Position numbers and translations under genes: made by a program | DNA from: Nonlabens sp. YIK11 | Lineage (GTDB): Bacteria; Bacteroidota; Bacteroidia; Flavobacteriales; Flavobacteriaceae | NCBI RefSeq assembly: GCF_001413925.1 | Contig: NZ_LBMJ01000001.1 | Location: forward strand, 372,001 to 436,000 | Direction: 5' to 3' | DNA length: 64,000 nt | Notes under the pieces: model-generated | Told to the model about the DNA's origin: nothing | Databases searched by the model: none | The model's input: only the letters and a program-made list of their open reading frames with translations | Part shown: positions 2,244-63,900 of the stretch, one piece after another | Layout: each line of letters starts with the position of its first letter | Position numbering within the stretch: position 1 is the stretch's first letter

Positions 2244-2259
2244 CGCTTTCGCGAAAGCG
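2244..2259. repeat. Palindromic repeat copy 1 (perfect, intergenic)
   Basis: Perfect CGCTTTCGCGAAAGCG, flanked by TT and AA so the symmetry extends to 20 bp. It lies between the divergent lipoprotein gene and gpsA, upstream of both. Confidence 0.95.
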
Positions 2260-2357
2260 AACTCTCTCCATCGCCTCATTTAACCATTCCATAGGTTGAC
2301 AAATTCTCAAAAAACAGTCCTTTCAAAAATGGTATCTTTACAAATACACACTTTTCT

Positions 2358-3353
2358 ATGGAAAAAACACTCAAAATAGCCGTCCTAGGTGGCGGTAGCT
2401 GGGCCACAGCAATTGTAAAAATGCTTACCGAAAGTATGGATGAAGTTGGGTGGTACATGCGCAGTGTGTATGCCATCGAGCACATCAAGCGCAACGATCA
2501 TAATCCCAGTTATTTAAGCAGTGTAGAATTTGATGTGGACAGGCTCAAGCTATCCAATGACATCAATGAAATAGTGGCGTATGCAGATGTGTGCATATTT
2601 GCCATTCCCAGTGCCTTTTTGCATTCAGAGCTTTCTGCGCTTACCGTTTCTTTTGAGGGTAAACGCGTCGTGTCTGCCATTAAAGGTATCGTTCCAGAAA
2701 CCGGTCTTATTGTAGGTGAATATTTCAACCAGCATCACAACGTAGACATGGATGATATAGGCGTCCTAACTGGACCTTGCCATGCAGAAGAAGTGGCTCT
2801 GGAAAGACTATCGTATCTCACCGTGGCCTTTGCAGATGAGACCAAGGCAAAAGAGCTTGCCGAATATTTTGAGAACGATTACATCAATTGTAAGATAAGT
2901 GATGACATCATAGGTACTGAATATGCCGCCGTACTCAAAAATATCTATGCCATTGCCGCAGGTATTGCTCACGGATTGGGCTATGGTGATAATTTCCAGA
3001 GTGTGTTGATGTCAAACGCCATAAGAGAGATGAAGCGCTACATCAAGAAAGTGCACAAAATGAAGCGCAACATCAATGATAGCGCCTATCTAGGTGATTT
3101 GCTAGTGACAGGTTATTCTATTTTTTCCCGTAATCGATTATTCGGCAACATGCTGGGAAAAGGGTACACCGTACGCAGTGCACAATTAGAAATGAGCATG
3201 ATTGCCGAAGGTTATTACGCCACTAAAAGTGCCTATGAGCTCAATCAAAAACAAGGTGCCAAAACACCTATTCTTGATGCCGTTCACGACATCTTATATG
3301 AAAACAAGAATCCAAAAAAGATCTTCAAAAAACTAGCTGAGAAGCTGGACTAA
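2358..3353 (+). CDS. gpsA: Glycerol-3-phosphate dehydrogenase [NAD(P)+]
   Basis: Reduces dihydroxyacetone phosphate to sn-glycerol-3-phosphate, the backbone for phospholipid synthesis; cytosolic. The 331-residue protein has a Rossmann motif LGGGSWA at residues 10-16, the LTGPCHAEEV segment near residue 137, and the AAVLKNIYAIAAG segment that holds the catalytic Lys. Length is normal. A TATCTTTA box at 2333-2340 resembles the Bacteroidota -7 element but no matching -33 element was found at the right distance. The aldehyde dehydrogenase gene follows after 18 bp. Confidence 0.96.
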   Translation: MEKTLKIAVLGGGSWATAIVKMLTESMDEVGWYMRSVYAIEHIKRNDHNPSYLSSVEFDVDRLKLSNDINEIVAYADVCIFAIPSAFLHSELSALTVSFEGKRVVSAIKGIVPETGLIVGEYFNQHHNVDMDDIGVLTGPCHAEEVALERLSYLTVAFADETKAKELAEYFENDYINCKISDDIIGTEYAAVLKNIYAIAAGIAHGLGYGDNFQSVLMSNAIREMKRYIKKVHKMKRNINDSAYLGDLLVTGYSIFSRNRLFGNMLGKGYTVRSAQLEMSMIAEGYYATKSAYELNQKQGAKTPILDAVHDILYENKNPKKIFKKLAEKLD

Positions 3354-3371
3354 ATTTTAAAATCAAAGTAC

Positions 3372-4925: not shown

Positions 4926-4950
4926 AACAGATCCCGAAAATCTCTAAATT

Positions 4951-5003
4951 AGCTTTTCAAATAGAATCCGTTAAAATGGAAGTTCTATTTGAAAAGCTTT
5001 TTT
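4951..5003 (+). terminator. Strong rho-independent terminator after the aldehyde dehydrogenase gene
   Basis: A perfect 16-bp stem (4951-4966 AGCTTTTCAAATAGAA pairs with 4983-4998) has a 16-nt loop and is followed by six T residues at 4998-5003. It ends only about 20 bp before the next start codon, so it separates the two genes unless transcription reads through. Confidence 0.88.
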
Positions 5004-5537: not shown

Positions 5538-5553
5538 CGCTTTCGCGAAAGCG
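5538..5553. repeat. Palindromic repeat copy 2 (perfect, intergenic)
   Basis: Perfect core inside a fully symmetric 24-bp palindrome at 5534-5557 (core flanked by AGTT and AACT). It sits between the convergent secreted-protein and zinc-ribbon genes and is the most complete copy in the window. It has no T run, so a terminator role is possible but unproven. Confidence 0.95.
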
Positions 5554-10053: not shown

Positions 10054-10069
10054 CGCTTTCGCGAAAGCG
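10054..10069. repeat. Palindromic repeat copy 3 (perfect, intergenic)
   Basis: Perfect core between the divergent AlbA_2 gene and lpxH, with the right half continuing as AACT like the 24-bp form at 5534-5557. Confidence 0.95.
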
Positions 10070-13293: not shown

Positions 13294-14970
13294 CCTAAGT
13301 TGTAGACTAGTGACTTTATTCCAGGTATTCTCATCAATGGAATAAGCCATCTCAAATGTTTGATTTTCATTGATCAAACTTATTCTATCTCCTAAATTAA
13401 ATCCTATCGCATTATATTTTACAGCAGAATTCTTTCCCGTAGTAATGCAGGCCTTGAGATGTTTTCCATCTGCGCCAACCGCTTTTGCATAACCAGTATC
13501 CATCACGTTATCGGTAAAAAAAACGGGCGTCATGTTACCAGGACCAAAAGGTTCCATTTGTTTTAGGATCCTGTAGAACTTAGGTGAGATCGATGTTAAC
13601 GGCAGCTTCATGTCAATAGTGACCTCTTCAGTGCGATCTTGATTTTTGATGGTGGCACAAACTACTTCTTCAAATCGCTTTTTGAAACCTTCATAGTGTT
13701 CCTCCTTTATGGTCAAACCAGCCGCATATTTATGACCACCATACTGTTCAATATATTCAGAACATTGCTCTAGCGCATTGTAAACATCAAAACCTTTAAC
13801 GCTACGTACACTGGCTGCCAGCTTATCGCCGCTTTTAGTAAAGACGACGGTAGGTCTGTAATAAGTTTCTATAAGTCTGGAGGCTACAATACCTATAACA
13901 CCTTTGTGCCAGCTGGGATCATAAACGACCGTAGAGAAACCATTCTTCTCTTCATTGGCAATGATCTGCTCTAGCGCTGCATCAGTGATCCATTTATCGG
14001 TTTCTTTGCGATCTGTGTTGTTTTGTTCAATAGCTTTGGCGAGCGTTATTGCTGTGTCAAGATCTTCGGCAGTGAGTAATTCAACAGCAAACAAACCGTG
14101 TTTCATTCTTCCCGCGGCATTAATGCGTGGTGCAATAGTAAAAACAACATCTGTAGACGTGAGCGAGCTTTTGGTGAGCTGGGAAATGATCGCCTGAAAT
14201 CCTGGTCGTGGACAGGTATTGATCACATGCAGCCCATGATAGGTTAGTATCCTATTTTCATCTACCATGGGAACGATGTCTGCGCCTATCGCGGTGGCTA
14301 CTAGATCCAGATAAGGAATCAATATCTCAAAATCCCATCCTTTGACCTTTGTGATCGCTTGGCACAATTTGAACCCAACACCACAACCGCACAATTCATC
14401 AAACGGATAGTTACAATCTTCTCGCTTTGGGTCCAATACAGCTACCGCATCTGGTAATTCCTTACCTGGCCTATGGTGGTCACAGATAATAAAATCAATT
14501 CCCTTTTCTCGCGCATAGGCCACTTTATCTATCGCCTTCACGCCGCAATCCAGGGCAATGATGAGAGTAAAATTATTGTCACTAGCATAATCAATCCCTT
14601 TGTAACTAACGCCATAACCTTCATCATAACGATCTGGAATATAGGTCGATACTTGAGGATAAAAGCTCTGTAAAAAAGTGGAAATGAGCGCAACGCTAGT
14701 CGTTCCGTCGACATCATAATCTCCATATACCATGATGTTTTCACCGTTTTCTACCGCTTGCAGAATTCGATCCACCGCAAGTTGCATATCTGCCATTAAG
14801 AATGGATCATGCAATTCTTTAAGAGATGGTCTGAAGAAGGATTTCGCTTTCGCGAAAGCGTCTATACCACGCTGCACCAGCAAACCCGCCAGCACCGGAT
14901 CAATATTGAGATCTTGGGCTAGTTGTTCCTGTTTTTCAGGATCTGGTGGTGGTTTGAGTGTCCAGCGCAA
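13276..14970 (-). CDS. recJ: Single-stranded-DNA-specific exonuclease RecJ
   Basis: A 5'-to-3' single-strand exonuclease used in recombination and mismatch or base-excision repair. The 564-residue DHH-family protein has motif I YGDYDVDGTT (Asp84, Asp86, Asp88), DCGVKA near residue 141, the DHH motif at 164-166 and the DHHA1 region with GGHKYAAGL. Length is typical. A copy of the palindromic repeat at 14845-14860 encodes AFAKA at residues 38-42, in the N-terminal part before the catalytic core, where it should be tolerated. Its 3' end overlaps the response regulator by 18 bp. Confidence 0.96.
   Translation of the reverse strand: MRWTLKPPPDPEKQEQLAQDLNIDPVLAGLLVQRGIDAFAKAKSFFRPSLKELHDPFLMADMQLAVDRILQAVENGENIMVYGDYDVDGTTSVALISTFLQSFYPQVSTYIPDRYDEGYGVSYKGIDYASDNNFTLIIALDCGVKAIDKVAYAREKGIDFIICDHHRPGKELPDAVAVLDPKREDCNYPFDELCGCGVGFKLCQAITKVKGWDFEILIPYLDLVATAIGADIVPMVDENRILTYHGLHVINTCPRPGFQAIISQLTKSSLTSTDVVFTIAPRINAAGRMKHGLFAVELLTAEDLDTAITLAKAIEQNNTDRKETDKWITDAALEQIIANEEKNGFSTVVYDPSWHKGVIGIVASRLIETYYRPTVVFTKSGDKLAASVRSVKGFDVYNALEQCSEYIEQYGGHKYAAGLTIKEEHYEGFKKRFEEVVCATIKNQDRTEEVTIDMKLPLTSISPKFYRILKQMEPFGPGNMTPVFFTDNVMDTGYAKAVGADGKHLKACITTGKNSAVKYNAIGFNLGDRISLINENQTFEMAYSIDENTWNKVTSLQLRLRDIH
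14845..14860. repeat. Palindromic repeat copy 4 (perfect, in recJ)
   Basis: Perfect core, read in the AFAKA frame in the N-terminal part of RecJ. Confidence 0.95.
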
Positions 14971-17607: not shown

Positions 17608-19767
17608 ATGACAAAATTAGAATTACTCAAAAAACACTTTGGGTACGACAGCTTTAGACCTCTTCAAGAAAAGATCATCGACAACGTTCTTGACGGCAAT
17701 GACCTGATGGTGGTCATGCCTACGGGTGGCGGTAAGTCCATGTGTTTCCAGCTGCCTTCACTCATTCTACCCGGTATTACGCTGGTGATTTCACCACTTA
17801 TTGCATTAATGAAGGATCAGGTAGATGCGCTTAATGCAAATGGCATTGCGGCTGGATTTTTCAATAGTTCACAGGAGACAGCAGACCAAGATGAGGTCAT
17901 TAAAAAACTGCAAAGCAATCAGCTACAACTGCTATACGTGGCTCCAGAAAGTATCTCGCTGTTGCAAAATCATTTAAACGAAGTCAAAGTCTCACTTATC
18001 GCTGTGGATGAGGCACACTGTATCTCGACATGGGGACATGATTTTAGGCCTGCCTATACGCAACTTTCCTACCTTAAGAAATCCTTTCCAGAAGCCAGTC
18101 TCATTGCACTCACCGCAACCGCTGACCGTGCCACTCGAGCCGATATAAAAAGGCAACTGGCTATCGATAACGCAAGAGAGTTTGTCGCCTCGTTTGACAG
18201 GCCCAATATCATGCTGGAAGTGCGTCCCGGCAACAACCGCATGACGCAAATCTTTAGGTTTTTGAACCATCATAAGGAAAACTCTGGGATCATTTATTGT
18301 TTGAGCCGCAAGAGCTGCGAGAATATTGCAGCAAAGTTGAAGGGACAAGGATTCTCTGCCGCTGCCTACCATGCTGGATTGGAAAACCGCTTTCGCGAAA
18401 GCGTACAAGAACAATTCATAAAGGACGAGATCAAGATTGTGGTAGCGACGATCGCCTTTGGGATGGGAATCGATAAGTCCAATGTACGTTTTGTCATCCA
18501 TTACAACATGCCTAAAAACGTCGAAGGCTACTATCAAGAAATAGGACGCGCTGGTCGTGACGGTCTTGACTCGCAAGCTTTGCTGTTTCACAGCTATGCA
18601 GACGTGATCCAGCTGCGCAAGTTTGCAGAAGGTAGCGGGAATAGCGAGGTGCAGATCGCAAAACTGGAACGAATGAAACAATTTGCCGAGGCGCTCACCT
18701 GCCGCAGGCGCATGTTGTTGTCCTATTTCAATGAGTTTCTGGAACAAGATTGTGGCAACTGTGATGTGTGCCTCAACAAGCCAGACTTTATGGATGGTAC
18801 ACGACAGGCACAAATGGCTTTGAGTGCCGTGTATCGCATGGATCAAAGAGCTACTCTTAATTTGCTGGTAGATGTATTGCGAGGTGCCAATAATGCTGGA
18901 GTCATGGAAAGTGGCTTTGATAAAATCAAGACCTATGGTGCAGGAAAAGAAACCTCATGGAACGACTGGCAACAGTACATCATTCAATTGATCAATCAGG
19001 GATTACTGGAGATTGCGTTTCATGAAAACAACCATTTAAAACTTACTCCTGAATCTGAAAAGGTTTTGTTTGAGGACAAGCCCGTTAGACTAGCCGTAAT
19101 CCCTAAACCAGAGCAGCGTGCTGCCGCAGCGCAATTGCAAGAATTACCCGAAGAGGTTCACAAGGAGTTGTTCAAAGAATTAAAAGAATTGCGTTTAAGC
19201 CTTGCGAAGGAAGAAAATCTGGCGCCATACATGGTTTTTAGTGACGCAACCCTTAAGGATATGGCAGCCCGATTACCACTAGATGATAACGAGTTTGCAG
19301 ATATTACTGGAGTTGGTGTCCATAAACATGATAAATACGGTCAACAATTTTTAAAAGTGGTAGAACAACACAAAGAATCTAGACCATCCAGCTTTATCTA
19401 TCGTGCGGCAACTAAAAAGAAAAAGAAGAAACGCTCTAATATCAGCGGATTATCTGATACAGTGATGGAGAGCGTAGAAGCTTTCTGGGCTGGAAAATCC
19501 ATTGAAGAAATTGCAGAGGAACGTTCCCTAAAAGCAGATACCATTCTATCACATCTAGGTAAACGTTATGCTTCGCACCGTGATGTGGAAGTGGACCCAT
19601 TACTGGATGGTGTTGACCTAGAAAAGCTGGAAAACATGCTGCCCAACTTCAAAAAGGACCGTTCCATGAAACCGGTGTTTGACTATTTTGATGGTAAAAT
19701 AGGTTATGGAAAACTGCACCTGGGAATGGCCGTTGTTGAAACTAGAACCATGGAACCACAACGATGA
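17608..19767 (+). CDS. recQ: ATP-dependent DNA helicase RecQ
   Basis: A 3'-to-5' helicase for recombination and fork repair. The 719-residue protein has P-loop MPTGGGKSM (Lys43), DEAH box AVDEAHC (Asp134-His137), and LTATADRATR. It then shows helicase motif VI (QEIGRAGRDG), the zinc-binding RQC cysteines (CRRRMLLSYF ... DCGNCDVCL), an RQC winged helix, an HRDC domain near 505-580, and a basic KKKKKKRS linker leading to a C-terminal helix-turn-helix segment. The palindrome at 18388-18403 encodes RFRES at residues 261-265, between motifs IV and V on the helicase surface. The methyltransferase gene overlaps its stop by four bases. Confidence 0.97.
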   Translation: MTKLELLKKHFGYDSFRPLQEKIIDNVLDGNDLMVVMPTGGGKSMCFQLPSLILPGITLVISPLIALMKDQVDALNANGIAAGFFNSSQETADQDEVIKKLQSNQLQLLYVAPESISLLQNHLNEVKVSLIAVDEAHCISTWGHDFRPAYTQLSYLKKSFPEASLIALTATADRATRADIKRQLAIDNAREFVASFDRPNIMLEVRPGNNRMTQIFRFLNHHKENSGIIYCLSRKSCENIAAKLKGQGFSAAAYHAGLENRFRESVQEQFIKDEIKIVVATIAFGMGIDKSNVRFVIHYNMPKNVEGYYQEIGRAGRDGLDSQALLFHSYADVIQLRKFAEGSGNSEVQIAKLERMKQFAEALTCRRRMLLSYFNEFLEQDCGNCDVCLNKPDFMDGTRQAQMALSAVYRMDQRATLNLLVDVLRGANNAGVMESGFDKIKTYGAGKETSWNDWQQYIIQLINQGLLEIAFHENNHLKLTPESEKVLFEDKPVRLAVIPKPEQRAAAAQLQELPEEVHKELFKELKELRLSLAKEENLAPYMVFSDATLKDMAARLPLDDNEFADITGVGVHKHDKYGQQFLKVVEQHKESRPSSFIYRAATKKKKKKRSNISGLSDTVMESVEAFWAGKSIEEIAEERSLKADTILSHLGKRYASHRDVEVDPLLDGVDLEKLENMLPNFKKDRSMKPVFDYFDGKIGYGKLHLGMAVVETRTMEPQR
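18388..18403. repeat. Palindromic repeat copy 5 (perfect, in recQ)
   Basis: Perfect core, read as RFRES at residues 261-265 of RecQ, in the second RecA-like domain. This is an insertion or substitution inside a well-folded catalytic domain, which makes it a good test of how the repeat is accommodated. Confidence 0.95.
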
Positions 19768-20626: not shown

Positions 20627-20815
20627 CTAATGGCAACCACAGTCACCATCGCCGCAATTATTGGAATTATAACGTGACGGGAATAATTTTTTTCTAAACA
20701 GCCATACCACGGCTGCAATCAATAGCAAAATAACGATACCGTACTGCAGATAGATTTGTAATTCGCTTTCGCGAAAGCGAACTAAAAACAAGAAATGTTG
20801 CAACAAGACGTTCAT
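20627..20815 (-). CDS. FeoB-associated Cys-rich small membrane protein
   Basis: The 62-residue product has one transmembrane helix (about residues 24-40), a basic stretch RKK and a Cys-rich tail (Cys54, Cys59, Cys61, ending CGCH). This is the layout of FeoB-associated Cys-rich membrane proteins, which probably help FeoB-dependent ferrous iron uptake. The ATG at 20815 overlaps the TAA of feoB by one base, which decides the start against a longer reading frame from 20893 that lies inside feoB. The palindromic repeat (20764-20779) encodes RFRES at residues 13-17 and so supplies part of the N-terminal extension before the helix. Confidence 0.85.
   Translation of the reverse strand: MNVLLQHFLFLVRFRESELQIYLQYGIVILLLIAAVVWLFRKKLFPSRYNSNNCGDGDCGCH
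20764..20779. repeat. Palindromic repeat copy 6 (perfect, in the FeoB-associated gene)
   Basis: Perfect core flanked by TT and AACT; read as RFRES in the N-terminal tail of the small membrane protein. Confidence 0.95.
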
Positions 20816-24825: not shown

Positions 24826-25620
24826 ATGATTGTAAGCGGCACCATTCGTAAAATGCAAACAGAACTTCAGGAAACCGTTCAATACTATATGGTTTTTAGA
24901 GATGAGTTTGTGCATGCCAACCAGTTACTCGACCATCATATCACGATCAAGCACGTGGCAAATGAGTGCCTCAATTGCGGGCTGGACAAGAAAATATGGC
25001 GTCAGGGATTTTGTTACGACTGTTTTTCCAGCATACCTCAAGCGGGTGATTGGATCATGAAACCAGAACTGAGCCGCGCCCATCTGGATGAGGAAGATCG
25101 CGATCTGGAATATGAAAAGAAAGTACAACTCAAGCCTCACATCGTTTATTTGGCAAACTCCAGCAACATCAAGGTAGGCGTCACTCGTCAGACCCAAATT
25201 CCTACTAGATGGATCGATCAAGGTGCCCACGAGGCCGTTGCGATTCTCGAGGCACCCAATCGTTACCTCGCCGGAATCACAGAGGTAGCTTTAAAAGAAA
25301 AAGTTGCCGACAAGACCAATTGGAGAAAAATGCTCACCAATGATATTGAAGATGTTGATTTGTTACGCTTTCGCGAAAGCGTGCTCGACCTCATCCCAGA
25401 AGAAGCCCGAGAGTTTGTTCTACCCGTAAAGGAAGAAACGCATATTCATTTTCCCGTGCTGCAATACCCCAAAAAAGTAACCAGCGTCAATCTTTCAAAA
25501 ACACCTGAACATTCTGGAAAGTTGATAGGTATCAAAGGCCAATATTTCATTTTTGAAAATGGCAAAGTCATGAATATCCGCAGCCATGAAGGCTTTGTGG
25601 TGGATTTGAAGGTGGACTAA
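24826..25620 (+). CDS. DUF2797 family protein
   Basis: The 264-residue protein matches DUF2797. It has a zinc-binding pair of CxxC motifs (Cys48/51 and Cys63/66), the YLANSSNIKVGVTRQTQIPTR segment and a WIDQGA stretch, a pattern that resembles a GIY-YIG nuclease fold, though I cannot confirm catalytic residues. Function is unknown. A TATTTTTG box at 24780-24787 may be its -7 element. The palindromic repeat at 25366-25381 encodes RFRES at residues 181-185, in a charged loop. Confidence 0.85.
   Translation: MIVSGTIRKMQTELQETVQYYMVFRDEFVHANQLLDHHITIKHVANECLNCGLDKKIWRQGFCYDCFSSIPQAGDWIMKPELSRAHLDEEDRDLEYEKKVQLKPHIVYLANSSNIKVGVTRQTQIPTRWIDQGAHEAVAILEAPNRYLAGITEVALKEKVADKTNWRKMLTNDIEDVDLLRFRESVLDLIPEEAREFVLPVKEETHIHFPVLQYPKKVTSVNLSKTPEHSGKLIGIKGQYFIFENGKVMNIRSHEGFVVDLKVD
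25366..25381. repeat. Palindromic repeat copy 7 (perfect, in the DUF2797 gene)
   Basis: Perfect core read as RFRES within a LLRFRESVLD segment. Confidence 0.95.
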
Positions 25621-27096: not shown

Positions 27097-29775
27097 TTAA
27101 TTCCCAGTAGTATCCTTCTTTTTCTTCAGCAAACCGTTCAAAAGATTGCGGGCGGTTTCTTTAACTTGTTCCTTAGGTGCTGGTTTTGCAACAGAGTCTG
27201 TTGGTTTTTTAATAGCGGTAGTGTCTGTAGCTGCTGGTTTTTTACCGGTAAGCACATCTTTAATACCACCCAGTGGGTTTTTACCAGTGGTTAGGTCATC
27301 TATCGCTCCGCCTAGAGCATTCTCACCACGATCCTTAAGTTTCTGCTTTTGGATTTCTACGATTTGATTGGTTAAATTAGTAATCGCAGATTCCAAATTC
27401 ACTTGAACATTAGGAGCCGCAAAAGACCCTGAAAAACGCACAGGAACAGGCACGGTAAGATTCTCAATTTCACTATCCTGAAGTTTTGAAAGCAGCGCAG
27501 CGCCATCTTTACCCAAATACTTGGCAGGTACCTTTAGATCCATGGTATAATCCATCTCGTTAGTCAAACTGTGTCTACCACTAGCCGTCACAACGATGTC
27601 CTTGACCTTAAAATCAAACGGACTTACCTGTACCGCACCATCTTGAAATCTTAATTTGGTTTTAAGGTCAGTTAGATCGATGTCTTTGAGGCTTATAAAA
27701 CTTAATTTTTCATCCAGTTTATCCAGTAATGGTGCAGATCCAGGTAAAATCTCTTTGGTAAGTAATTCGGCTAGGGCATCACCACTTATGGAGGTTAATA
27801 TAGGTGACAGGTCATCTGTCAAGTTTCCTTTAATATCAATATTGGTATTGATTTTACCTTGTAAGGCTTGAATGATAGGAACGTAGGTCTGGAACATCTC
27901 AAAACCTTGAAAGGACTGCGCAATATCCAGACTGACCATGTTCAAATTCATGTTGAATTGCGGTGTCGCTCCTTTTGTACTCACAGATCCTGCTACCGTG
28001 ATCGCACCACCAAAAATATCCGTACTGGTATTGTTCAATGTCAAGGTTTCATCACGCACCATTGCGATTCCTTTTACATTTTTAAGAGTCAATCCATCGT
28101 ATAGCACTTGGCCTAAATTGAAGTCCAGTTGCGCATCAAGAAAAGCAGGAATCTTCACTGCCTCGCTAGTGGTTGCTGTAGAAGTTTGATTAGCACTGGC
28201 GACTTCAGTAGTTTCTTCCATAAAGTCAGAAACGTCAAAACTATTGGACCTCAAGTTGAAGTTTCCTTTCAAACCTTGATCTTGTAGCAAGAAGCCTATC
28301 AAATTATTGATGGTACCACTAGCTTTAATGTCTGTGTTACCAGTGATGGCATCAAAAGCATTAAGCTTTATGGTAGATGTATTCAAATCTATATCTGCCC
28401 TATTGATCAAAAATGGATTTTTAAACGCAGTACCTATGTATTTGAATTCAGTTAATGATGCGGTTCCTTTAGTTCTTACTCGTTCGTAGCGTTCCTTTTC
28501 AATGCTTTCCATATCAAATTGAGCTGCCATATCCAGCGCTAGCCTACCATCCAGATCTATGTCCTCTGGCAATGGAAAGGATTGTGAAAGGTTGCCTAAA
28601 TCCAGATTTCCCTGAGCATTGAGATCCACATTCATGTTTGAAGTAAGTGCCGTGATCATGGCGTTACCCTGCATGCGATCCTTACCTATGTTGAAAGAAG
28701 TATTGGCAATATTCAGATAAGTATCATCTACTTTACCTGTCGTGTTCATGAGTTGGGCATCAATATAGATATTGGTCACTTTTTGTGGTAAATCTGGATA
28801 TTTGAAAGACGCATTATCAGATTTAACTCTTATATCCAATAATGGGATCAACTCATCTGTCACTTGGCCCTTTATGGAACCGTCCACGGTAAAGTCACCT
28901 GTGGTGGTAATACCATCTAGATTAGATCTGTAGGTTTCTGGAATGATGGCAAAGAAGTTCTTAAAATCAGATGACGGTGCGTTAAAAGTGAGGTCCACAA
29001 TGGTGGATTCTTCTTCCAGATCAATGAAACCCTGTAGTTCCAGTTCCAGATCATTGACCAGTGCCTTGTTATCCTTGAGCGTATATTTTTGATTGTCCAG
29101 ATCCATCAGGATATCTGCATCCAGTTGCACGCGTTGTCCTGATAAATATTCAACATCATCCAGACTGTAGATTACCAGTGCTGACGTTTGTGTATCCAGC
29201 GTACTGCTCGCCAGTGAAAAATCACCATTACCGCTGTGTTGCAGGTCAGTTAGGACCAATACGTTTTTAGTGCTGATATCTTCATAGGAGAGTTCAGAAT
29301 TTGTTATCTCGTAATGTTTAAGGTCAAAAGTGAAGCCTGAAGAGGTGTCTTGAGGTTGTTGGGAGTCCGCTTTCGCGGAAGCGATATCCCAATTAGCCAC
29401 TTCTTCTTCATTGACTTTTAAACGTGAAACAGCATTATTGACAATAAGCTCATTGATACGAATGGGCTCGTCTGCCTTATTGAACACGTCAAAAAGTGGC
29501 AGGTCCAGGTAGGTTTGCTGGGCATAGAACAAAGTGTCGCCAGCAAAAGGCTCTTTGTTGATGATGGACAAATCCTCAATGTTGAGGCGCGCGTCTGGAA
29601 AGGCTTTGATAAAGCTTAAATCCACCTCGCCGAATTCAATCTGCGCATCCAGTGATGCATTGAGCTTATCCTTGACGGCCTGCGCGATTTGATCCTGAAA
29701 TAAAAATGGAGCGGCAACGATGGCCAGAACCAGTACTAGAATCACGATTCCCAGAATCTTAAAAAACTTTTTCAT
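27097..29775 (-). CDS. AsmA-like envelope protein
   Basis: The 892-residue protein has an N-terminal membrane anchor (residues 6-26, KILGIVILVLVLAIVAAPFL) and an AsmA N-terminal domain. A long periplasmic beta-rich region and an AsmA-like C-terminal domain follow, then a disordered Lys/Pro/Ala-rich tail that ends KKKKDTTGN. Members of this superfamily are thought to bridge inner and outer membranes for lipid transfer. The single-mismatch palindrome at 29368-29383 encodes ASAKA near residue 131. It is large but has no frameshift or stop. Confidence 0.88.
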   Translation of the reverse strand: MKKFFKILGIVILVLVLAIVAAPFLFQDQIAQAVKDKLNASLDAQIEFGEVDLSFIKAFPDARLNIEDLSIINKEPFAGDTLFYAQQTYLDLPLFDVFNKADEPIRINELIVNNAVSRLKVNEEEVANWDIASAKADSQQPQDTSSGFTFDLKHYEITNSELSYEDISTKNVLVLTDLQHSGNGDFSLASSTLDTQTSALVIYSLDDVEYLSGQRVQLDADILMDLDNQKYTLKDNKALVNDLELELQGFIDLEEESTIVDLTFNAPSSDFKNFFAIIPETYRSNLDGITTTGDFTVDGSIKGQVTDELIPLLDIRVKSDNASFKYPDLPQKVTNIYIDAQLMNTTGKVDDTYLNIANTSFNIGKDRMQGNAMITALTSNMNVDLNAQGNLDLGNLSQSFPLPEDIDLDGRLALDMAAQFDMESIEKERYERVRTKGTASLTEFKYIGTAFKNPFLINRADIDLNTSTIKLNAFDAITGNTDIKASGTINNLIGFLLQDQGLKGNFNLRSNSFDVSDFMEETTEVASANQTSTATTSEAVKIPAFLDAQLDFNLGQVLYDGLTLKNVKGIAMVRDETLTLNNTSTDIFGGAITVAGSVSTKGATPQFNMNLNMVSLDIAQSFQGFEMFQTYVPIIQALQGKINTNIDIKGNLTDDLSPILTSISGDALAELLTKEILPGSAPLLDKLDEKLSFISLKDIDLTDLKTKLRFQDGAVQVSPFDFKVKDIVVTASGRHSLTNEMDYTMDLKVPAKYLGKDGAALLSKLQDSEIENLTVPVPVRFSGSFAAPNVQVNLESAITNLTNQIVEIQKQKLKDRGENALGGAIDDLTTGKNPLGGIKDVLTGKKPAATDTTAIKKPTDSVAKPAPKEQVKETARNLLNGLLKKKKDTTGN
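29368..29383. repeat. Palindromic repeat copy 8 (one mismatch, in the AsmA-like gene)
   Basis: CGCTTTCGCGGAAGCG: one base differs from the core, changing the AFAKA peptide to ASAKA on the minus strand. It is one of three decayed copies, all of them in genes. Confidence 0.85.
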
Positions 29776-37115: not shown

Positions 37116-38582
37116 CTATAGTTTTAAATCTGTTGGTTCAATACCAAAGAACAATTCAAGCACTTTAAGTCTGAATAAGTAATTGAATTTGGCTTGATTC
37201 AGATTGATTTTTGAATTGTCATATCTCAACTTACTCTGGCTGAAATCAAAAGCATTGGTCAACCCAACATCGTATCGTTCTGTCGCATAGTTGTAAGCCA
37301 GTTCTTGAGATTCTACTGCCTTTTTTGCTGCTTCATAGGACTCGCGTGCACCTTTCACATCTACATAGGCTTGATAAACGTTACTCTCAAGATCCAGCTT
37401 TGCTTGCTCTAATTGATATTCAGTTCTTTTAAGGTTTACTTGGTTGCGCTGCACGTTGCTACGAACACTGAAACCATTGAATATGGGAATGCTTAATTGG
37501 AATCCATAAGCGATACCATCGTTTTGATACAACTGGTCAATAAATGGATCAGCACCACGTAAGGTGGCTATGGTGTTGGGAAATTCACCAACCACGGCTT
37601 GTCCAGTTTCTTGAACCACACCTATCTGTTCTATAGAAACAGGATTGTCTGGATCTACGGTTTGCGTAAAAGATGTTGCGTCCGTGTATCTTGTATCGTA
37701 GCCAAAAAATGCACTTAAACTAGGATAATAAGCACCTTTAGCGATTTGTAAGGACTTTTCTGCCAGCTCTACTTCCTTCTCGGCGATTTTAACTTCAGAG
37801 CGATTACTTTCTGCTCCAGCGATAATTTCGCTTACAGGTTTACTGGCAATGCTTTCATCAATAATTTCATAATCCTCGTCCGCAATGTCAAAAGTCTCGT
37901 AGTCCTTTATAAGAAGTAATTGCGCCAGGCTTATCTTACTAATGGTCACGGCATTTTGGGCATTGATAATTTGCTGCTGCTCTGATGCGTTGGTCGCTTG
38001 GATCTCAAGAAGGTCACCTTTAGGCAATTGTCCAGCATCCACTAATTCTTGTGTGCGCTCGATTTGATCTAGGGTAACTTGATTTTGAGATTGAAGTACT
38101 TCTAGGTTTGCCTTGTTCGTAAGAATTTCCAAATAACTATTTGCCACAAATAAGGATATATCATCCTTCATTTTGTCCAGCCTGTACAGGCTAGCGATCT
38201 GAGCGATTTTAGCTTGTTGTAGCTGTCTCACATTTCTCAAACCATCAAATAGCGTATAACCTATGTTGATTCTACCAGTCACCGATAGGAACGTGGTGGT
38301 TTGAGCATTGTTTGTTACCGGGTTAAAACTAAGACCCGTGTTTTCTGAAACACCACCAGATGCATTTGCTGTAGGCAAAAAGTTTCCAAAGGCGTTTAGT
38401 CTATCGGCATCTGCAGATTCTATGTCCAGCTGGCTTTGCTTGATGGATATGTTGTTTTCCAGTGCGTATTGCACACACTCGCTCAAGGTCCATTGCTTAT
38501 TGTTAGTAGAGGCTGTTGGGGTTTGCGCTTTCGCGAAAGCGAAACAACCAAAAACTGCCATGCAAATAATTAAGTTCTTCAT
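37116..38582 (-). CDS. TolC-family outer-membrane efflux protein
   Basis: The 488-residue protein has a signal peptide and two TolC-like helical repeats (for example SLFVANSYLEILTNKANLEVLQSQ and ESYEAAKKAVESQELAYNYATERYDVGLTN). It forms the outer-membrane exit duct. Its signal peptide ends in AFAKA (residues 15-19), and this stretch is encoded by the palindrome at 38526-38541, so signal-peptidase cleavage after Ala19 falls in repeat-derived sequence. It lies between the two adaptor genes. Confidence 0.9.
   Translation of the reverse strand: MKNLIICMAVFGCFAFAKAQTPTASTNNKQWTLSECVQYALENNISIKQSQLDIESADADRLNAFGNFLPTANASGGVSENTGLSFNPVTNNAQTTTFLSVTGRINIGYTLFDGLRNVRQLQQAKIAQIASLYRLDKMKDDISLFVANSYLEILTNKANLEVLQSQNQVTLDQIERTQELVDAGQLPKGDLLEIQATNASEQQQIINAQNAVTISKISLAQLLLIKDYETFDIADEDYEIIDESIASKPVSEIIAGAESNRSEVKIAEKEVELAEKSLQIAKGAYYPSLSAFFGYDTRYTDATSFTQTVDPDNPVSIEQIGVVQETGQAVVGEFPNTIATLRGADPFIDQLYQNDGIAYGFQLSIPIFNGFSVRSNVQRNQVNLKRTEYQLEQAKLDLESNVYQAYVDVKGARESYEAAKKAVESQELAYNYATERYDVGLTNAFDFSQSKLRYDNSKINLNQAKFNYLFRLKVLELFFGIEPTDLKL
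38526..38541. repeat. Palindromic repeat copy 12 (perfect, in the TolC-like signal peptide)
   Basis: Perfect core read as AFAKA at residues 15-19, giving an AXA signal-peptidase site with Gln20 at +1. Confidence 0.95.
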
Positions 38583-43120: not shown

Positions 43121-43339
43121 TTAATTCACCTTTTTGCGTGTGGTACTGCGATAGATCATGTAAATAATTCCGCCTACCAGTAGGTATGGGAAAATCATGA
43201 GATAGGTGATTCCATTGTTTAATCCTTCAGCTTCGGCAGTGCTACCGCCACTTTCAATAACGGCACGGCACATGGCACATTGCGCTTTCGCGAAAGCGGA
43301 AAAAAGAAGAACTACAATAAGAGTAACGAGCTTTTTCAA
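43121..43339 (-). CDS. Small exported membrane protein of the cytochrome oxidase cluster
   Basis: The 72-residue product starts at TTG 43339, five bases after the DUF420 stop; longer frames overlap that gene. It has a signal peptide with the repeat-derived AFAKA (residues 15-19) before Gln20 and Cys21, then CAMC and a single C-terminal helix (LMIFPYLLVGGIIYMIY) with a basic end. The Cys pair in CAMC could bind metal or a thiol, but that is not shown. It is the last gene of the oxidase cluster and is likely co-transcribed. Confidence 0.75.
   Translation of the reverse strand: MKKLVTLIVVLLFSAFAKAQCAMCRAVIESGGSTAEAEGLNNGITYLMIFPYLLVGGIIYMIYRSTTRKKVN
43283..43298. repeat. Palindromic repeat copy 13 (perfect, in a signal peptide)
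   Basis: Perfect core read as AFAKA at residues 15-19, at the same distance from the start as in the TolC-like protein. Confidence 0.95.
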
Positions 43340-48355: not shown

Positions 48356-48371
48356 CGCTTTCGCGAAAGCG
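48356..48371. repeat. Palindromic repeat copy 14 (perfect, intergenic)
   Basis: Perfect core flanked by TTTT and AGG, upstream of the ctaB promoter and just before the repeat cluster. Confidence 0.95.
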
Positions 48372-48952: not shown

Positions 48953-51900
48953 TTATCCCACCACAAAATTCACAATCTTACCGGGAACAATGATGGTCTT
49001 GCGTACCACTTTTCCTTCCAGCTGCTCTTGGACTTTTTCGTTTTCCAATACCATTTTTTCTAGATCGTCTTTAGAAATGTCAACCGGTAGGTCCAGTGTG
49101 AATTTCATCTTGCCGTTAAACGAAATAGGATAGGTCTTGCTGCTCTCGACCAAATATTTCTCCTCAAAAACCGGGAACGGCGCCTCGCTGATGGATTCGT
49201 TGTGTCCCAACAATGACCATAATTCCTCGGCAATGTGTGGTGCGTACGGTGATACCAGAATCGCCAGTGGTTCCAGCACCTCGCGGTGGTTGCATTTTTG
49301 AGCGGTCAATTCGTTCACTGCAATCATAAAGCTACTCACGCTGGTGTTGAATGAGAAGTTCTCAATATCCTCACGGGTTTTCTTGATGGTCTTATGCAGG
49401 GTTTTCATGCTGTCTGGCGAGGCTTTCTCGTCAGAAACATTGAATCCATTCTCGTCATGATAGAGTTTCCACAGTTTTTTCATAAAGCCGTAAACGCCAG
49501 TAATTCCTGCGGTGTTCCATGGTTTGGCCTGCTCTAGCGGACCTAAAAACATCTCGTACAAACGCAAAGTATCTGCGCCATATTGATCACAGATGTCGTC
49601 CGGATTAACGACGTTGTATTTAGACTTGGACATTTTTTCAACCTCACGATTAACTTGCCACTTAGACTCTTTAAATAAAGGTTGGAGCTTACCGTCAACG
49701 TAATCCAAAAACGTAGCCTCACGATATCCTTTATTAGAATAGTAATCTCTAAAATTATTTATATCCATCCTATTTTCTTGAACTAAGGAAATGTCTATTC
49801 TAATTTTTGATATCGTAAATTCAGGTTGTTTAGGTAAGTGCTGGGCGTTTTCTGAAATATGATACTTTAGAATTTCATCAATATTACCATTGTCTTTGAG
49901 ATCATCGGCTGATTGTTCTTTTTCCCACAATGAAAACACGTAATCGCTTATAAATATGGCACTCTTCATACCGATAAGATACTGCTGATTATCGCTTACA
50001 TAATAAGGATTCAAACGGTAAATGAAGGCGCCTTCCCCAAGTATCATTCCTTGATTGATCATCTTTTGGAACGGCTCGTTGACGGTGACTTTGCCCAAAT
50101 CGTGCAGCAACTTCACCCAAAACCTACTATATAATAAGTGGCCCGTAGCGTGCTCGCTACCGCCTATGTATAGATCGACGTTTTGCCAGTATTCCTGCGC
50201 TTCTTTAGAGAACATTTCGTTCTCGTTGTTGGCATCCATGTATCTAAACATGTACCAAGAACTTCCTGCCCAACCTGGCATGGTGTTCAACTCTAATGGA
50301 TACACACAATCGCGATTATCATCATTGGAAACCACTTTGTTTTCTTTGGTACACCAGCTCCATGTGGTCGCACGACCTAGTGGCGGTGCGCCATCTTCAG
50401 TAGGTAGGTATTCGTCAACTTCTGGCAATTCCAGTGGCAGATGCTTGCGATCGATCATTTGTGGTAAACCGTCCTTATAATATACTGGGAACGGCTCGCC
50501 CCAATAACGTTGTCTGGAGAACACCGCATCTCGCAAACGGTAATTGGTTTTGCCTTTTCCAGCACCTACTTCTTCCAATTTGTCGATAGCAGCTGCCATC
50601 GCACCAGAGGCGTAACTCATCCCGTTGAGGAAATCGCTATTGGTGAGTTTTGTGTCGTCCTTAGCCGCATAGGCTTCCTCACTTACATCTACCTCTTTGA
50701 AAATGTTTTTGATTTCAGGCATCCCTTTTTGACCCGCAAAGAAATTGGCAAACGCATGATCGCGCTCATCGCCGCATGGTACGGCCATCACGGCGCCTGT
50801 TCCATAACCCGCCAAAACATAATCACCTATCCACACAGGAATTTTTTCACCACTTAAAGGATGCGTGGCATAAGCACCCGTAAACACACCAGAAATCGTC
50901 TTCACATCTGCCATGCGCTCGCGCTCTGATCGCGCTGCGGTGGCTTTTTTGTAGGCCTCGACCGCTTCTTTTTGTTCTGGTGTTGTGATGATGTCGACCA
51001 GCTCATGTTCTGGTGCCAGCGTCATAAACGTGACTCCATAGATAGTATCTGGACGTGTCGTAAAGACATCAATTTTAGCCCCATTGCCTGCGGCATTTCC
51101 CCCAAGGGGAAAGTTCCCTTCAAGTTTGAAAGAAACCATGGAACCAATAGATTTTCCAATCCAGTTGCGTTGGATTTCTTTGATGGATTCACTCCAGTCG
51201 AGGTCTTCTAGGTCGTTCAGTAATCGCTCTGCAAACGCGCTGATTCTCATCATCCACTGGCGCATTTTCTTGCGCACCACAGGATGGCCGCCACGCTCGC
51301 TCACACCGTTGACGATTTCATCATTGGCCAGTACCGTTCCCAGCGCTGGACACCAGTTCACTTCGGTATCAGCCAGGAATGTCAGACGATAATCCAGTAG
51401 GATTTTCTGTTGTTCCTGATCGGTGTACGAGTTCCAATCTGCTGCTGTGAATTGTTTCAGATCTTCATCTGTTGCAGCGTTGATGGAGGTTGTTCCGCTT
51501 TCGCGAAAGCGAGCTACCAATTCTTCTATAGGACGTGCTTTATTTGCGTCGTTATCGTACCAGCTCTCAAACAACAGGATAAAAATCTCTTGCGTGTATT
51601 TGTAATAGCTGGGATCGCTGGTCTTGACCTCGCGCGACCAGTCAAAACTAAAACCGATGCGGTCCATCTGCTCGCGGTATCTCGCAATGTTTTCCTTAGT
51701 CGTGATGGCTGGATGCTGTCCGGTCTGTATCGCGTACTGTTCTGCCGGCAAGCCAAAGCTGTCATAACCCATAGGATGCAGGACATTGAAGCCTGTGTGG
51801 CGCTTGTATCTGGAGACGATGTCACTCGCAATGTAACCCAATGGATGACCCACGTGCAGTCCAGCGCCACTGGGATATGGGAACATATCCAGCGCATAGA

Positions 51901-53075: not shown

Positions 53076-53111
53076 CGCTTTCCTGTCTGCCGACAGGCAG
53101 GCGCGAAAGCG
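53076..53111. repeat. Palindromic repeat copy 16 split by a second palindromic element
   Basis: The core halves CGCTTTC (53076-53082) and GCGAAAGCG (53103-53111) are separated by exactly 20 bp, of the CCTGTCTGCCGACAGG family also present at 8104-8119. Without the 20 bp the site is a perfect CGCTTTCGCGAAAGCG. Insert boundaries are ambiguous by one base. Confidence 0.9.
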
Positions 53112-56419: not shown

Positions 56420-56435
56420 CGCTTTCGCGAAAGCG
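56420..56435. repeat. Palindromic repeat copy 17 (perfect, intergenic)
   Basis: Perfect core flanked by AGTT and AAAT, near the start of the YbjN-PspA operon. Confidence 0.95.
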
Positions 56436-57856: not shown

Positions 57857-58564
57857 TTGGAAAACTATTTCAACATACTATTTTCTGAAGTGAACATCAC
57901 ACTTACCGTGCTGCTGCTCATCCTCATTATCTATTGGATTTTTACCATGATTAGCGGTATTGATCTTGACCTGGATATAGACGTTGACATCGATGTAGAT
58001 GCAGATCTGGACATGGATTTTGACAGCATTGAAGGTGGTAACCTTGATTTTGAAGATGTTGCCAATGCAGAGGTAGATCGCGAGCATGTCGTCAATAAGC
58101 GCACGCGCCAGCTCAAATGGTGGCAAATCATCTTGATTTACTTCAATTTTGTGGGTTTGCCGTTCATGTTCACCTTTACCTTTTGGATCTTCATATGGTG
58201 GCTCATGAGCGTTTTAACCACAGCCGTTACGGGAAGCTATGACAACATTTTTGGTTTCATCATCGTGCTGGTAGCTATCCTTCCAGCGCTATTTGTGACT
58301 AAAGTAGTGACCACGCCTTTTAAGGCCTTTTTCAAAAATCTTAATAAAGATGGAGACAAAGCAGTGGACTTTTTGGGCCGCAGCGCTATCTTGATGTCCT
58401 CTATTTCTGGAGACAAATTGGGCAATGCTGAAGTGCTTGCCGATGGAAACCCGATGAGTATTTATGTCAAGTCCCTGGATGGATCAGAATTACGCTTTCG
58501 CGAAAGCGTGCTCATCATCAAGCAATCAGACGATAAGAATTATTTTTTAGTGAGTAAAGCGTAA
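57857..58564 (+). CDS. NfeD/YqiJ-like OB-fold membrane protein
   Basis: The 235-residue protein starts at TTG 57857. It has a first transmembrane helix (about 14-33), an acidic region (about 35-60) rich in alternating Asp (D-L-D-I-D-V-D pattern), two helices (about 92-150) and a C-terminal OB-type domain. It resembles YqiJ, the partner of flotillin-like YqiK in E. coli, and lies directly before the flotillin gene, so a membrane complex with flotillin is likely. The palindrome at 58493-58508 encodes RFRES in the OB domain. The Asp run may bind divalent metal. Confidence 0.82.
   Translation: MENYFNILFSEVNITLTVLLLILIIYWIFTMISGIDLDLDIDVDIDVDADLDMDFDSIEGGNLDFEDVANAEVDREHVVNKRTRQLKWWQIILIYFNFVGLPFMFTFTFWIFIWWLMSVLTTAVTGSYDNIFGFIIVLVAILPALFVTKVVTTPFKAFFKNLNKDGDKAVDFLGRSAILMSSISGDKLGNAEVLADGNPMSIYVKSLDGSELRFRESVLIIKQSDDKNYFLVSKA
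58493..58508. repeat. Palindromic repeat copy 18 (perfect, in the OB-fold gene)
   Basis: Perfect core read as RFRES (SELRFRESVLII), inside a beta strand-loop of the OB-type domain. Confidence 0.95.
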
Positions 58565-60741: not shown

Positions 60742-60752
60742 GTAGATTTTAG

Positions 60753-60880
60753 GACGCTCCACTATTCTTTCTTGAGAAAGAATAGTGTCGGGCTATCCGC
60801 TTAATCTTTTGAATATCTCACAGGTTTTAATAACCTGTGAGATCTCAAAAAGGATGTCGCTGCTATCCCTAGCGCTAGCA
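60753..60880. repeat. Composite hairpin element after the flotillin gene
   Basis: Two perfect 12-bp stems sit in tandem: CACTATTCTTTC at 60760-60771 pairs with 60776-60787, and ATCTCACAGGTT at 60815-60826 pairs with 60832-60843 (5-nt loop). The second is nested in a longer imperfect inverted repeat: GGGCTATCCGCTTAATCTTT on the left and the complement of AAAAAGGATGTCGCTGCTAT on the right align with only a few differences. A CTAGCGCTAG palindrome closes the element. There is no T run, so it is not a standard terminator. It resembles intergenic palindromic elements I have seen in flavobacteria, but I cannot confirm this. Confidence 0.6.
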
Positions 60881-60959
60881 GAATGATTTACCACTAGAAC
60901 AAGAGTTTCATCAACCTCTATGGCTCTATTAACCATCAATTACTACTATTCTACTTTCA

Positions 60960-63900
60960 ATGGCAGATAAAGAACTAAAAGACACCACCCAACTGGACTC
61001 AGGAACCTATGAGATCATCCAGAGTCGTTTGCTCAAGCAAAAAAATGACTTGCAGCAGCGTCTGGCAGCACTCAATGACGAGCGTAAAAAAGTCTTCGGT
61101 TCGCTAGAGACGCGGCTTATTGCAAATGATCGCGTCAATACAGAGAACAACTGTATCGCTCGGGATATTGTGACCATTGGCAATTACAGCCTCTTTGGGT
61201 ACAACGTACACTTTGGCCTGCGTACAGAGATCAAGTTGAGCGACGTTTTTAATGTCTATGAGTTTGATCGTGATGGTGAGGCTGGTGATGCATTACGCTT
61301 TCGCGAAAGCGGAACAAAGCTTCAAATCATTGAGGATCCTATCTTTCAAACCGATTTTGAAAACCTTTACAAATACTACCGCAATACCATATTCTCCAAG
61401 TTTGCCATTGTTGGGAATTACTTGCACATGGTGTTTCAGCTTAGTGATTCCGTGACTGATATCAAGACCTTTAAATGGTTGATCAAGGAGAACGAACTAC
61501 AATACATAGACAATCGCAGCGAGCACGAGTATAGATTTCCGCCGCAATATGGATTCCAGTGGAAGGAAGCCGGACGTGACAATCAGCGATCTGGAAGGCA
61601 TGGTCACGTGTCTATTTTGGACAAGGTTTTTGTAGAAACCATAGGTGGTGACCTCACGATTAAGGTCGAGGATAATACAGATGATGGTCAAGGGATTTAC
61701 CGCGAGGACGTAGAACATCGCGACCAGACACTGGACGATGGTCAGTACCGCTATGCAGATTTAGGCAACTTGATAATTCTTGAGATCAAACCCTTCCAGG
61801 AAGAACCACGCTATTTTGTCTACAATCACAAGATCAAAGAAGTTCAAAAAATAGACAGCATTGCGCAGGCAGCTGTACTGCTTCCAGACGAGCAAGGAAT
61901 TATATTTCCTAGCGGTTATTACCTACAAACTGGAGAATACAACGTATTTCCCAGCGACGCTGGCAAACTAAAGTTTGAGCAAAAGATAGCTTCACCTAAT
62001 GGCGAGGATCATTTATATGTATTCTACAATGCCGCTCAAGGGTTGTATGCATTGATGTCGTATAACGTGATTGACCAGACGGTCAAGACACCTATAATCT
62101 GCAGTGGTTTTACGATTTTGGAACGTGGTGAGCTGTGTTACTTTAGAGCTGGAGAAGAGCAGACTAAGCATCACATCATGCAAATATGGCAAACACCCTA
62201 TTTGAAAGGTGATATCATGCCGTCTGAGCATCAAGATACTATGCTCTATAAAATTGGTAACAAAGACATTGTAAAAGCCATGGCCGAAGCCAATGAGCTT
62301 TTGACGCTATTAAACAAGGAAGATAGTTATGCCGGTTTGTACGATGATATCGCTCGTACTTCTAAAGATATTCTCGATGCCTATTACTGGTTGTCTGAAG
62401 ATGAAACCCAGCAAATCAACATACCGCTTCTTGAAATCAACAAAGCGTCTAACGCAGCTATTGATGAGTTTGAGAAAGTCAAGCAAATGCGTAAACAAGC
62501 CGCTGCCGACACTAAAGATATTTCAAAAAAAGCCGATGCACTTTTCAGCAAAATAAAAAGTACGTCGTTCAAGTCCATTAATGATTTTGTAGAGCTTTTG
62601 ACCCAACTGCGCAGTTTGCGTGGTGAAGCCATAGGTCTATATGAAATACGATATGTAGATACCGATTTCATCAAAGGAATTGAGGAGCAGATCGTTGAGC
62701 AAAACGAGGTAATATCACGTCGTGCAGTAACTTTCTTGCTGGATGATAAAGCACTAGCTCCATACCATGATGCCGTTGCCCAAAAACAAAAAGCACTAGA
62801 CGACACTAAAAAAGTCATCGAGATTAAAAACCTAGAGAAAGAGGTCAATCAGATTGCAGAAGATCTGGAGCTACTTATAGAAATAGTTTCTAACCTAGAC
62901 ATTGAGGATACCTCGCATTCAACCAAAATTATTGAGAACATCTCTTTGATTTTTGCGACCATCAATCAGGTAAAGGCTGCTATTAAGAATAAGATTAAAA
63001 CCGTAGGTAAAAAAGAAGCACAAGCCGATTTTGCAGCACAGTTAAAGTTGATCGATCAGAGTATCATCAATTATCTAGACATTGCAAATACACCTGAAAA
63101 ATGCGATGAATTCCTAACTAAAGTTTCTATTCAGCTAGAAGAGCTGGAAGGAAAGTTTGCCGATTATGACGAGTATATCACAGAGATTATTGCTAAACGT
63201 GAAGAAGTCTATGCCGCTTTTGATAACCGTAAGAGCAGCCTGGTAGAAGCACGTAATAAGAAAGCTATTTCTTATCAAAATGCTGCAGAACGCATCATCA
63301 AAGGTGTCCAAAAACGAGCGCAATCACTAGATAGCATCACAGAAATCAATGGTTATTTTGCCAGTGATTTAATGATCAATAAGGTGCGAGACATTGTCGC
63401 GCAATTAAAGGAGCTGGACGACGCTGGTAAAGCGGAAGCTATTGAAACCGCCCTAAAAGTAGCTCGTGAAGATGCCTTGAGAAAACTTAAGGATAAAAAT
63501 GAACTGTATGAAGATGGTGATAATATCATTAAGCTGGGTAAGCATAAATTTGGCGTCAATAAACAACAGCTGGATTTAACCATCGTCTTCAAGGATAACG
63601 CGCTGTTCTACCATCTTACTGGTACAGATTTTTATCAAGAATTACACAATGAAATCCTGACACAGTCTAAAGAAATCTGGAATCAAGAACTGGTTTCAGA
63701 AAATGCTCAGGTATATCGATCTGCCTACCTCGCCTACTCAATTTTCAAAAATGGAGATCAAGAAGCCTTAAGAACGATGAGTCCGGCAGACTTGTTAGTT
63801 CACGTTCAAGAAATAGCTAGTGGGAACTATTCTGGTGGTTATGTAAAAGGTGTTCATGATCATGATGCCGCACAGATCTTAAGTGTGCTTTTACATAAGG

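Follow-up and report, generated by a model that had tools for sequence, protein, structure and literature searches.

A dispersed 16-bp palindrome with C-poor flanks in Nonlabens genomes as a candidate self-DNA recognition signal

Introduction

A 64,000-nucleotide stretch of the chromosome of Nonlabens sp. YIK11 (contig NZ_LBMJ01000001.1, positions 372,001 to 436,000; hereafter the window) contains 19 copies of a 16-bp palindrome, CGCTTTCGCGAAAGCG, and raises the question of what could multiply such a sequence and yet hold its copies apart. An original prediction, made from the letters of the window alone, proposed a chromosome-wide function (protein binding, nucleoid structure, methylation or DNA uptake) or a spreading mechanism with local exclusion, and drew a parallel with the HIP1 palindrome of cyanobacteria. 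We find that the palindrome is the centre of a two-fold element of ~50 bp that is repeated throughout the genome, and that perfect copies of the 16-mer itself are kept nearly free of substitutions. The reading that we favour, with a probability of roughly 0.4, is that it is a genome-wide self-DNA recognition tag, similar to the DNA uptake sequences (DUS) of other bacteria, that is spread and kept by recombination.

Results

A palindrome abundant in three genera

All 19 copies in the window are real: 15 are perfect, three have one mismatch and one is split (Table 1). Dinucleotide shuffles of the window yield on average 0.17 matches with at most three mismatches, and never more than one. The same search of the window itself returned one further match, at 8711, which has three mismatches and may be due to chance. 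The abundance is not a local cluster. The exact 16-mer occurs 680 times in the 3.26-Mb genome (G000), i.e., one copy per 4.8 kb, compared with none for the reversed control, and 803 places match it with at most one mismatch. The core of the motif is CTTTCGCGAAAG, not the HIP1 word GCGATCGC.

The excess extends to all 22 other Nonlabens genomes, which carry 180–737 copies, and the count is zero in 15 of 15 genomes at the order level and in one other family member. In a survey of 299 family genomes the 16-mer was present in 38 and exceeded 100 copies in only five, namely three Nonlabens, G242 (630 copies) and G226 (153 copies); the remaining 33 have 1–13 copies each. The 12-bp core was matched in 116 of 395 sampled family genomes, with more than 100 copies in six (four Nonlabens, G242 with 917 and G226 with 445). 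The next highest count is 21, and numbers above this are confined to Nonlabens and the two other genera. We searched 20 other genera, 20 kb in each, for dialects of the motif and found no comparable palindrome. The repeated words present in three of these stretches (L160, L167 and L168) are not palindromes; in L160, from G049, words of 10–12 bases reach 26–29 copies within 20 kb. Two small contigs of G016 (L283 and L284) are inverted duplicates of themselves, probably assembly artefacts, and motif counts on them are therefore doubled.

The exact 16-mer and its 14-mer are absent from the literature searched, which leaves out most papers in subscription journals, and a 10-mer of the motif has no occurrence in those related papers of that literature that were listed. 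Judged by title and the start of the abstract, no Nonlabens paper on palindromes in that literature treats the motif.

Copies are held apart

Gaps between the window copies average 3,281 bp, the smallest being 1,580 bp. The hand estimate that such a minimum would arise by chance about twice in 10,000 was of the right order: only one of 20,000 uniform placements of 19 points (a fraction of 5e-5) had no gap below 1,580 bp. The first 100 sites in the genome-wide list leave 99 gaps, of which one is shorter than 1 kb (21 expected), and the coefficient of variation (CV) is 0.48, lower than in any of 20,000 exponential simulations. Short gaps are also scarce in G004 (2 of 93 below 1 kb, 16 expected), although its overall CV of 0.87 is unremarkable (P = 0.11) because of large gaps. 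Stretches of 20 and 34 kb in G004 have no perfect site, but near-matches are present there. Within 20-kb stretches, gaps below 1 kb between copies of the 12-mer core number 2 of 53 in G242 and 0 of 28 in G226.

Even spacing could in principle be an artefact of gene layout. We compared 464 sampled kb of G000, in which one of 93 gaps is below 1 kb, with two gene-aware nulls, one keeping the genic or intergenic class of each site and the other capping every gene and every intergenic region at a single site. These gave means of 23.0 and 15.4 such gaps and minima of 10 and 5, respectively. The repulsion survives both nulls, and the artefact is accordingly rejected.

In-place gain at two traced sites and conservation of perfect copies

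Two genes allow the origin of a site to be traced. Of 22 Nonlabens recQ orthologs, 15 carry the site in identical codon positions (10 perfect, four with one mismatch and one with two), and the other seven have SxEER-type residues, closer to those of the outgroups. No indel separates the two states, the protein changes from HEERENV to HRFRESV, and site-less homologs differ from the site at many of its 16 bases. Among the carriers that encode these residues, both Arg codons of the site and its Glu and Ser codons are identical, compared with values of 0.35, 0.61 and 0.43 elsewhere in RecQ; the Phe codon is variable (0.64, against 0.73 elsewhere). In recJ, the site is present in six of seven Nonlabens (four perfect, two with one mismatch) and absent from G008, which has eight mismatches. 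G226 has the site with one mismatch, and G242 has a four-mismatch version that still encodes FAKA. In 21 other genera 6–11 of the 16 bases differ from the site, and the change from [FY][EDN]xA-type residues to FAKA again involves no indel. Judged from these alignments, the site in both genes arose in place by many base changes without insertion or deletion, altering the protein.

Perfect sites hardly differ between G000 and G004. Aligned G004 DNA was available for 42 of 114 sampled G000 sites, 36 of which are perfect in G000; 35 of the 36 are identical in G004 and the remaining one is interrupted by a 20-bp palindrome described below. Only 1 of 576 core bases has changed, at a mean local divergence of 5.4%. 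Five of the six one-mismatch copies are likewise unchanged, and one has a further change. In the gene for leucyl-tRNA synthetase (LeuRS), the site lies at the same position in all seven Nonlabens loci returned (the search returned loci from 30 of 35 genomes, and the incomplete genome G012 gave weak matches only), and the G242 site is ~30 bases away from that position. Among 19 sampled G000–G242 ortholog pairs, six have a site in G000, and two of these six share it at a near-identical position; among seven G000–G226 pairs the only site is that of recJ, which is shared.

A LeuRS tree had suggested that a reader spread horizontally between three unrelated genera. This idea is weakened: when RecJ is added to LeuRS, the grouping of all nine motif genomes in a single clade is not rejected (p-AU 0.196, quick tree), and FAKA is present in RecJ of eight of these nine genomes and in none of 21 others.

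C-poor arms extend the palindrome

On each strand, ~17 C-poor, G/T-rich bases precede the palindrome on its 5′ side, and together with the 16-mer they form a two-fold element of ~50 bp. At the 96 perfect G000 sites with full 150-base flanks, C makes up 2–9% of bases at 13 of the 15 positions lying 3–17 bases 5′ of the palindrome on each strand (14–18% at the two exceptions, positions 13 and 14) and 18–22% beyond 30 bases. The depletion is similar in and between genes, sites close to a gene edge being left out of this split: arm C is 7.2% at genic sites (n = 47), with no difference between the two sides of the coding strand, and 5.5% at intergenic sites (n = 36), with 21.4% and 16.0%, respectively, at 31–40 bases. 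In G242 the arms have 6.6% C against a background of 19.8%. Those of G226 are weaker (15.8% against 22.6%), and the outermost pair C..G is found in just 18 of 43 of its core sites.

Flank information peaks at distances of 3, 6, 9, 12 and 15 bases, a three-base rhythm that five random positions would match with a probability of 0.0017 in G000, 0.015 in G242 and 0.074 in G226, the last not significant. The C counts of the two arms are almost uncorrelated (0.13, 0.14 and −0.09). Between G000 and G004 the 17 arm bases diverge by 4.4%, much like their surroundings (4.2–5.8%), so the arms are kept by composition rather than by exact sequence.

Placement relative to genes

Genes were called with a simple hexamer finder of our own rather than by standard annotation. 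Sites occur in every sampled stretch of the G000 chromosome. Among the 114 sampled sites (up to one mismatch), 65 are genic and 49 intergenic in sequence that is 86% coding, which amounts to a preference for intergenic DNA without avoidance of genes. All three frames are used, encoding AFAKA (33 sites), RFRES (18) and LSRK (14). In the first tenth of a gene, 12 of 13 sites are in the AFAKA frame, probably owing to the tolerance of signal peptides. A role as transcription terminator was considered and rejected: intergenic sites are flanked by genes in convergent, divergent or tandem arrangement and other sites are genic, so termination would be a side use at most.

Stretches of low GC content are poorer in sites (Spearman 0.56, P = 0.005, n = 23). 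Ten proteins from stretches chosen for their few sites were searched, and eight gave matches: Wadjet (two), a STAND-like protein, Rhs, glycosyltransferase (two), type I restriction and bipA. One motif-poor stretch of G004 (L193, 3247–7796) has genes for a Wadjet-like JetD and an SbcC/SMC-like ATPase.

Plasmid, phage and island DNA

The plasmid of G000 (contig C2, L274–L275) has no site within two mismatches. It carries Rep3 and Mob_Pre genes, and an overlap of ~8 kb between the contig ends implies a circle of ~21 kb. Further plasmid genes encode an AbiEii-like protein and a TIR protein of the CAP12/Pycsar type. The Nonlabens phages P12024S and P12024L (L197 and L198), close relatives of each other that we take to be lytic, have no site within three mismatches. 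They also lack TCGCGA and have only 9 and 10 CGCG in ~35.6 kb, which we estimate to be below expectation from composition; restriction avoidance is a possible cause.

Among 2.9 million viral contigs the 16-mer was found in 41 stretches, and some of these copies, with C-rich flanks, may be chance matches in GC-rich DNA. Two motif-bearing groups are tailed phages, as judged by portal, head, terminase, tape-measure or baseplate matches. The first comprises five contigs whose portal proteins are 99–100% alike, so that it is nearly one phage; sites with at most two mismatches lie 4.5–6.1 kb apart in L265 and L268, and an encoded SieB suggests that the phage is temperate. The second group is less regular, with gaps of 1.8–8.7 kb in L269. 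Two relatives with 74% terminase identity retain this group's site at the portal gene start (zero and one mismatch) but not its terminase site, and a relative at 34% identity has no site.

Stray copies were followed in 11 stretches from 9 of the 33 low-copy family genomes. Ten were compared with L057, which carries an island that, from gene names recognised by eye, is presumably a heavy-metal resistance island; nine share DNA with it and L066 does not. The island (L057–L065, L067) is common to several flavobacterial genera, with sites inside its presumed pump and P-type ATPase genes. The island looks as if it had been derived from a motif-bearing lineage, which is what export of DNA from tagged bacteria would produce.

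A second, GC-rich palindrome of 20 bp (CCTGCCTGCCGGCAGGCAGG type) interrupts some copies of the motif. It lies inside the 16-mer in four of seven sampled copies in G000, three of four in G004, one of four in G242 and one of five in G226, and has no copy in 400 kb of 20 other genera. It seems to target the motif. The window copy and that in L179 of G004 are probably the same site, and the last site of the window is the empty counterpart of a filled site in G004. A small G004 contig (L285, 4472–12325) has a 2618-residue open frame made of ~390-bp tandem repeats.

Table 1 Copies of the 16-bp palindrome in the window (G000:C1:372001–436000) and associated features. ORF, open reading frame.
Feature	Position	Context	Remark
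Perfect palindrome	2244..2259	Intergenic, divergent genes either side	
Example of extended element, ~50 bp	2227..2276	Around the preceding site	Arms as described in the text; statistical property of many sites
Perfect palindrome	5538..5553	Intergenic, convergent genes either side	
Perfect palindrome	10054..10069	Intergenic, divergent genes	Perfect copy at matching place in L003
Perfect palindrome	14845..14860	Within recJ (ORF 13276–14970, −)	Encodes AFAKA
Perfect palindrome	18388..18403	Within recQ helicase gene (ORF 17608–19767, +)	Encodes RFRES
Perfect palindrome	20764..20779	Intergenic, convergent genes either side	
Perfect palindrome	25366..25381	Within DUF2797 gene	Encodes RFRES
One-mismatch copy	29368..29383	Within AsmA-family gene	
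One-mismatch copy	31055..31070	Within HPPK/deoxynucleoside kinase fusion gene	Encodes LSRK
Perfect palindrome	32811..32826	Within SpoU methylase gene	
One-mismatch copy	34561..34576	Within Nfu/NifU gene	
Perfect palindrome	38526..38541	Near start of outer-membrane efflux protein gene	AFAKA; signal-peptide-like stretch by eye
Perfect palindrome	43283..43298	Intergenic	
Perfect palindrome	48356..48371	Intergenic	
Perfect palindrome	51496..51511	Within LeuRS gene	
Split copy	53076..53111		CGCTTT (53076–53081), 20-bp GC-rich palindromic insert (53082–53101), CGCGAAAGCG (53102–53111)
20-bp insert within motif	53082..53101		Also in L079, L094, L095; G004 L179, L180, L196; G242 L070; G226 L229
Perfect palindrome	56420..56435	Intergenic, divergent genes either side	
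Perfect palindrome	58493..58508	Near 3′ end of ORF 57857–58564 (no Pfam match)	Encodes RFRES
Perfect palindrome	61296..61311	Within long ORF	Encodes RFRES; counterpart in G004 interrupted by the 20-bp insert

Discussion

The genome count, the congeners, the gaps, the conservation and the gene-aware nulls all support a chromosome-wide signal with local exclusion. None of the three outcomes that would have spoken against the original prediction, namely Poisson-like gaps, clustering of the copies in the window alone or relatives lacking the excess, was observed. Of the functions that it listed, a signal resembling those of DNA uptake and propagated with a bias agrees best with the data, with nucleoid structure as a lesser possibility. 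In such a self-DNA tag system, a sequence-reading protein or complex would bind the ~50-bp element, DNA bearing a tag would be favoured in uptake or recombination, the presumed biased step, and tags would be copied into homologous places while broken ones would be replaced. One tag per recombining fragment of a few kb would suffice, so that close neighbours would be redundant and the spacing would become even. The C-poor arms have a counterpart in uptake signal sequences (USS), which have weak extended flanks. DUS and USS share with the motif very many near-identical copies and a fairly even spacing, and they are rich in core DNA and scarce in recently acquired DNA (PMC2397512 and PMC7811141). 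Taken together, evenly spaced and pure copies that are gained in place by many changes, with hints of depletion in accessory DNA, form the pattern described in these papers for uptake sequences linked to recombination. In our data, enrichment in core and depletion in accessory DNA are indicated by sampled signs (one plasmid, two phages, the GC trend and ten proteins), and two phage groups carry sites. Neisseria DUS, too, are reported to have been gained with too many changes for point mutation (PMC2397512), and dialects of DUS are reported between relatives (PMC3630211).

Several observations weigh against this interpretation. DUS and USS are not known to be palindromic, whereas the Nonlabens element is a 16-bp palindrome with two-fold flanks. 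USS are also ~5 times denser, with a spacing of ~1 kb (PMC7811141), than the one per 4.8 kb found here. T2SSE, the ATPase of type IV pili and secretion, was not matched above the cut-off in 10 of 11 motif genomes; it was matched in one (G015) and in 3 of 21 others, and a type IV pilus was accordingly rejected as the reader and the known DUS route seems absent. The presence of the competence channel ComEC in all 11 motif genomes tested is in favour of the tag, but 20 of 21 genomes without the motif have ComEC as well. Sequence divergence of G004 from G000 neither rises nor falls with distance from a site. In two groups of tailed phages several copies are present, some conserved in position, which would be more natural for a signal acting on resident DNA; the core gene bipA sits in a motif-poor stretch, and two of the ten proteins tested from such stretches had no match. 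A reader independent of pili is conceivable, since Riemerella columbina, described as a member of the Flavobacteriaceae, is reported to prefer self-DNA in transformation (PMC7965970).

The element could instead be a recombination signal similar to Chi that, being palindromic, is active from either side: a helicase-nuclease would stop degrading at the element, and RecA would be loaded on a 3′-ended strand ending in the G/T-rich flank. Chi surroundings are G/T-rich, and a flank whose information peaks every three bases over 15 would suit RecA-like triplets; phages bearing the motif would gain protection from degradation. Known Chi sites, however, are short (5–8 bases), asymmetric and not palindromic, and we know of no even spacing among them. 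The density here is close to that described for Chi in E. coli, one per 5 kb, and Chi is described as enriched in the core genome (PMC8022716); the corresponding bias of the motif is indicated by samples. Chi is polarised (PMC8022716) and strand-biased, but a perfect palindrome allows no polarity. The rhythm fails to reach significance in G226. RecC, tried as a reader, was matched in none of 32 genomes, motif-bearing or not, with a working E. coli control and AddAB outside the search. We judge a Chi-like role unlikely. Binding by a protein that organises or segregates the chromosome, with spacing under selection, seems comparably unlikely. It would account for a two-fold, strongly conserved element that is genic and intergenic and occurs in every sampled stretch, and resident phages would need the element too. 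Sites of the ParB/Noc type are also chromosomal palindromes of 14–16 bp with TTTC...GAAA character, but they number in the tens compared with ~680. The protein is putative, a ParB paralogue was rejected as reader because a second ParB-type match occurs in 2 of 11 motif genomes against 5 of 21 others, and G004 tolerates its long stretches without a perfect site. More speculative, and quite improbable, is a genome address in which the palindromic centre would set the register and the C-poor arms would be read as triplets, on the 3′-ended strand and from either side, by a recombinase-type reader. Host and tailed phages would thereby mark self DNA for recombination or for protection from degradation, and the logic of one address per fragment would yield regular spacing. 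Such an address would be neither a classical DUS read by a pilus nor an asymmetric Chi.

Methylation and mobility account for less. HIP1 (GCGATCGC) is likewise a highly iterated, lineage-limited palindrome of unsettled function that occurs in coding and non-coding DNA, and in this form the predicted parallel holds. The Nonlabens motif departs from it in being twice as long and rarer per kb, and in its C-poor flanks with triplet rhythm and strong exclusion below 1 kb. A HIP1-like repeat made and kept by methylation with biased mismatch repair, as modelled for HIP1 (PMC4390886), is very unlikely here. The many bases by which site-less RecQ and RecJ homologs differ are not the trace of a single-base ratchet, and methyltransferases usually recognise less than a 16-mer with C-poor flanks. 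Least probable of all is a mobile palindromic element of the REP/RPE type with target exclusion. Such elements are short palindromes in many copies, and the 20-bp palindrome does insert into the motif, but spreading of the motif itself by insertion is contradicted at the two coding sites traced, where codons are replaced without change of length. Sites at the same place across species and the compositional structure of the flanks also speak against it.

To our knowledge, signals for self-DNA are confined to few bacterial families, where they are linked to type IV pili. A further, palindromic system of this kind in marine Flavobacteriaceae with, for the most part, no pilus ATPase would reopen an old question to testing, namely whether uptake bias, recombination or selection for chromosome order spreads such tags. 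In addition, the motif may fingerprint DNA that has left the lineage, such as the metal-resistance-like islands of other genera, and may serve as a host marker for phage contigs.

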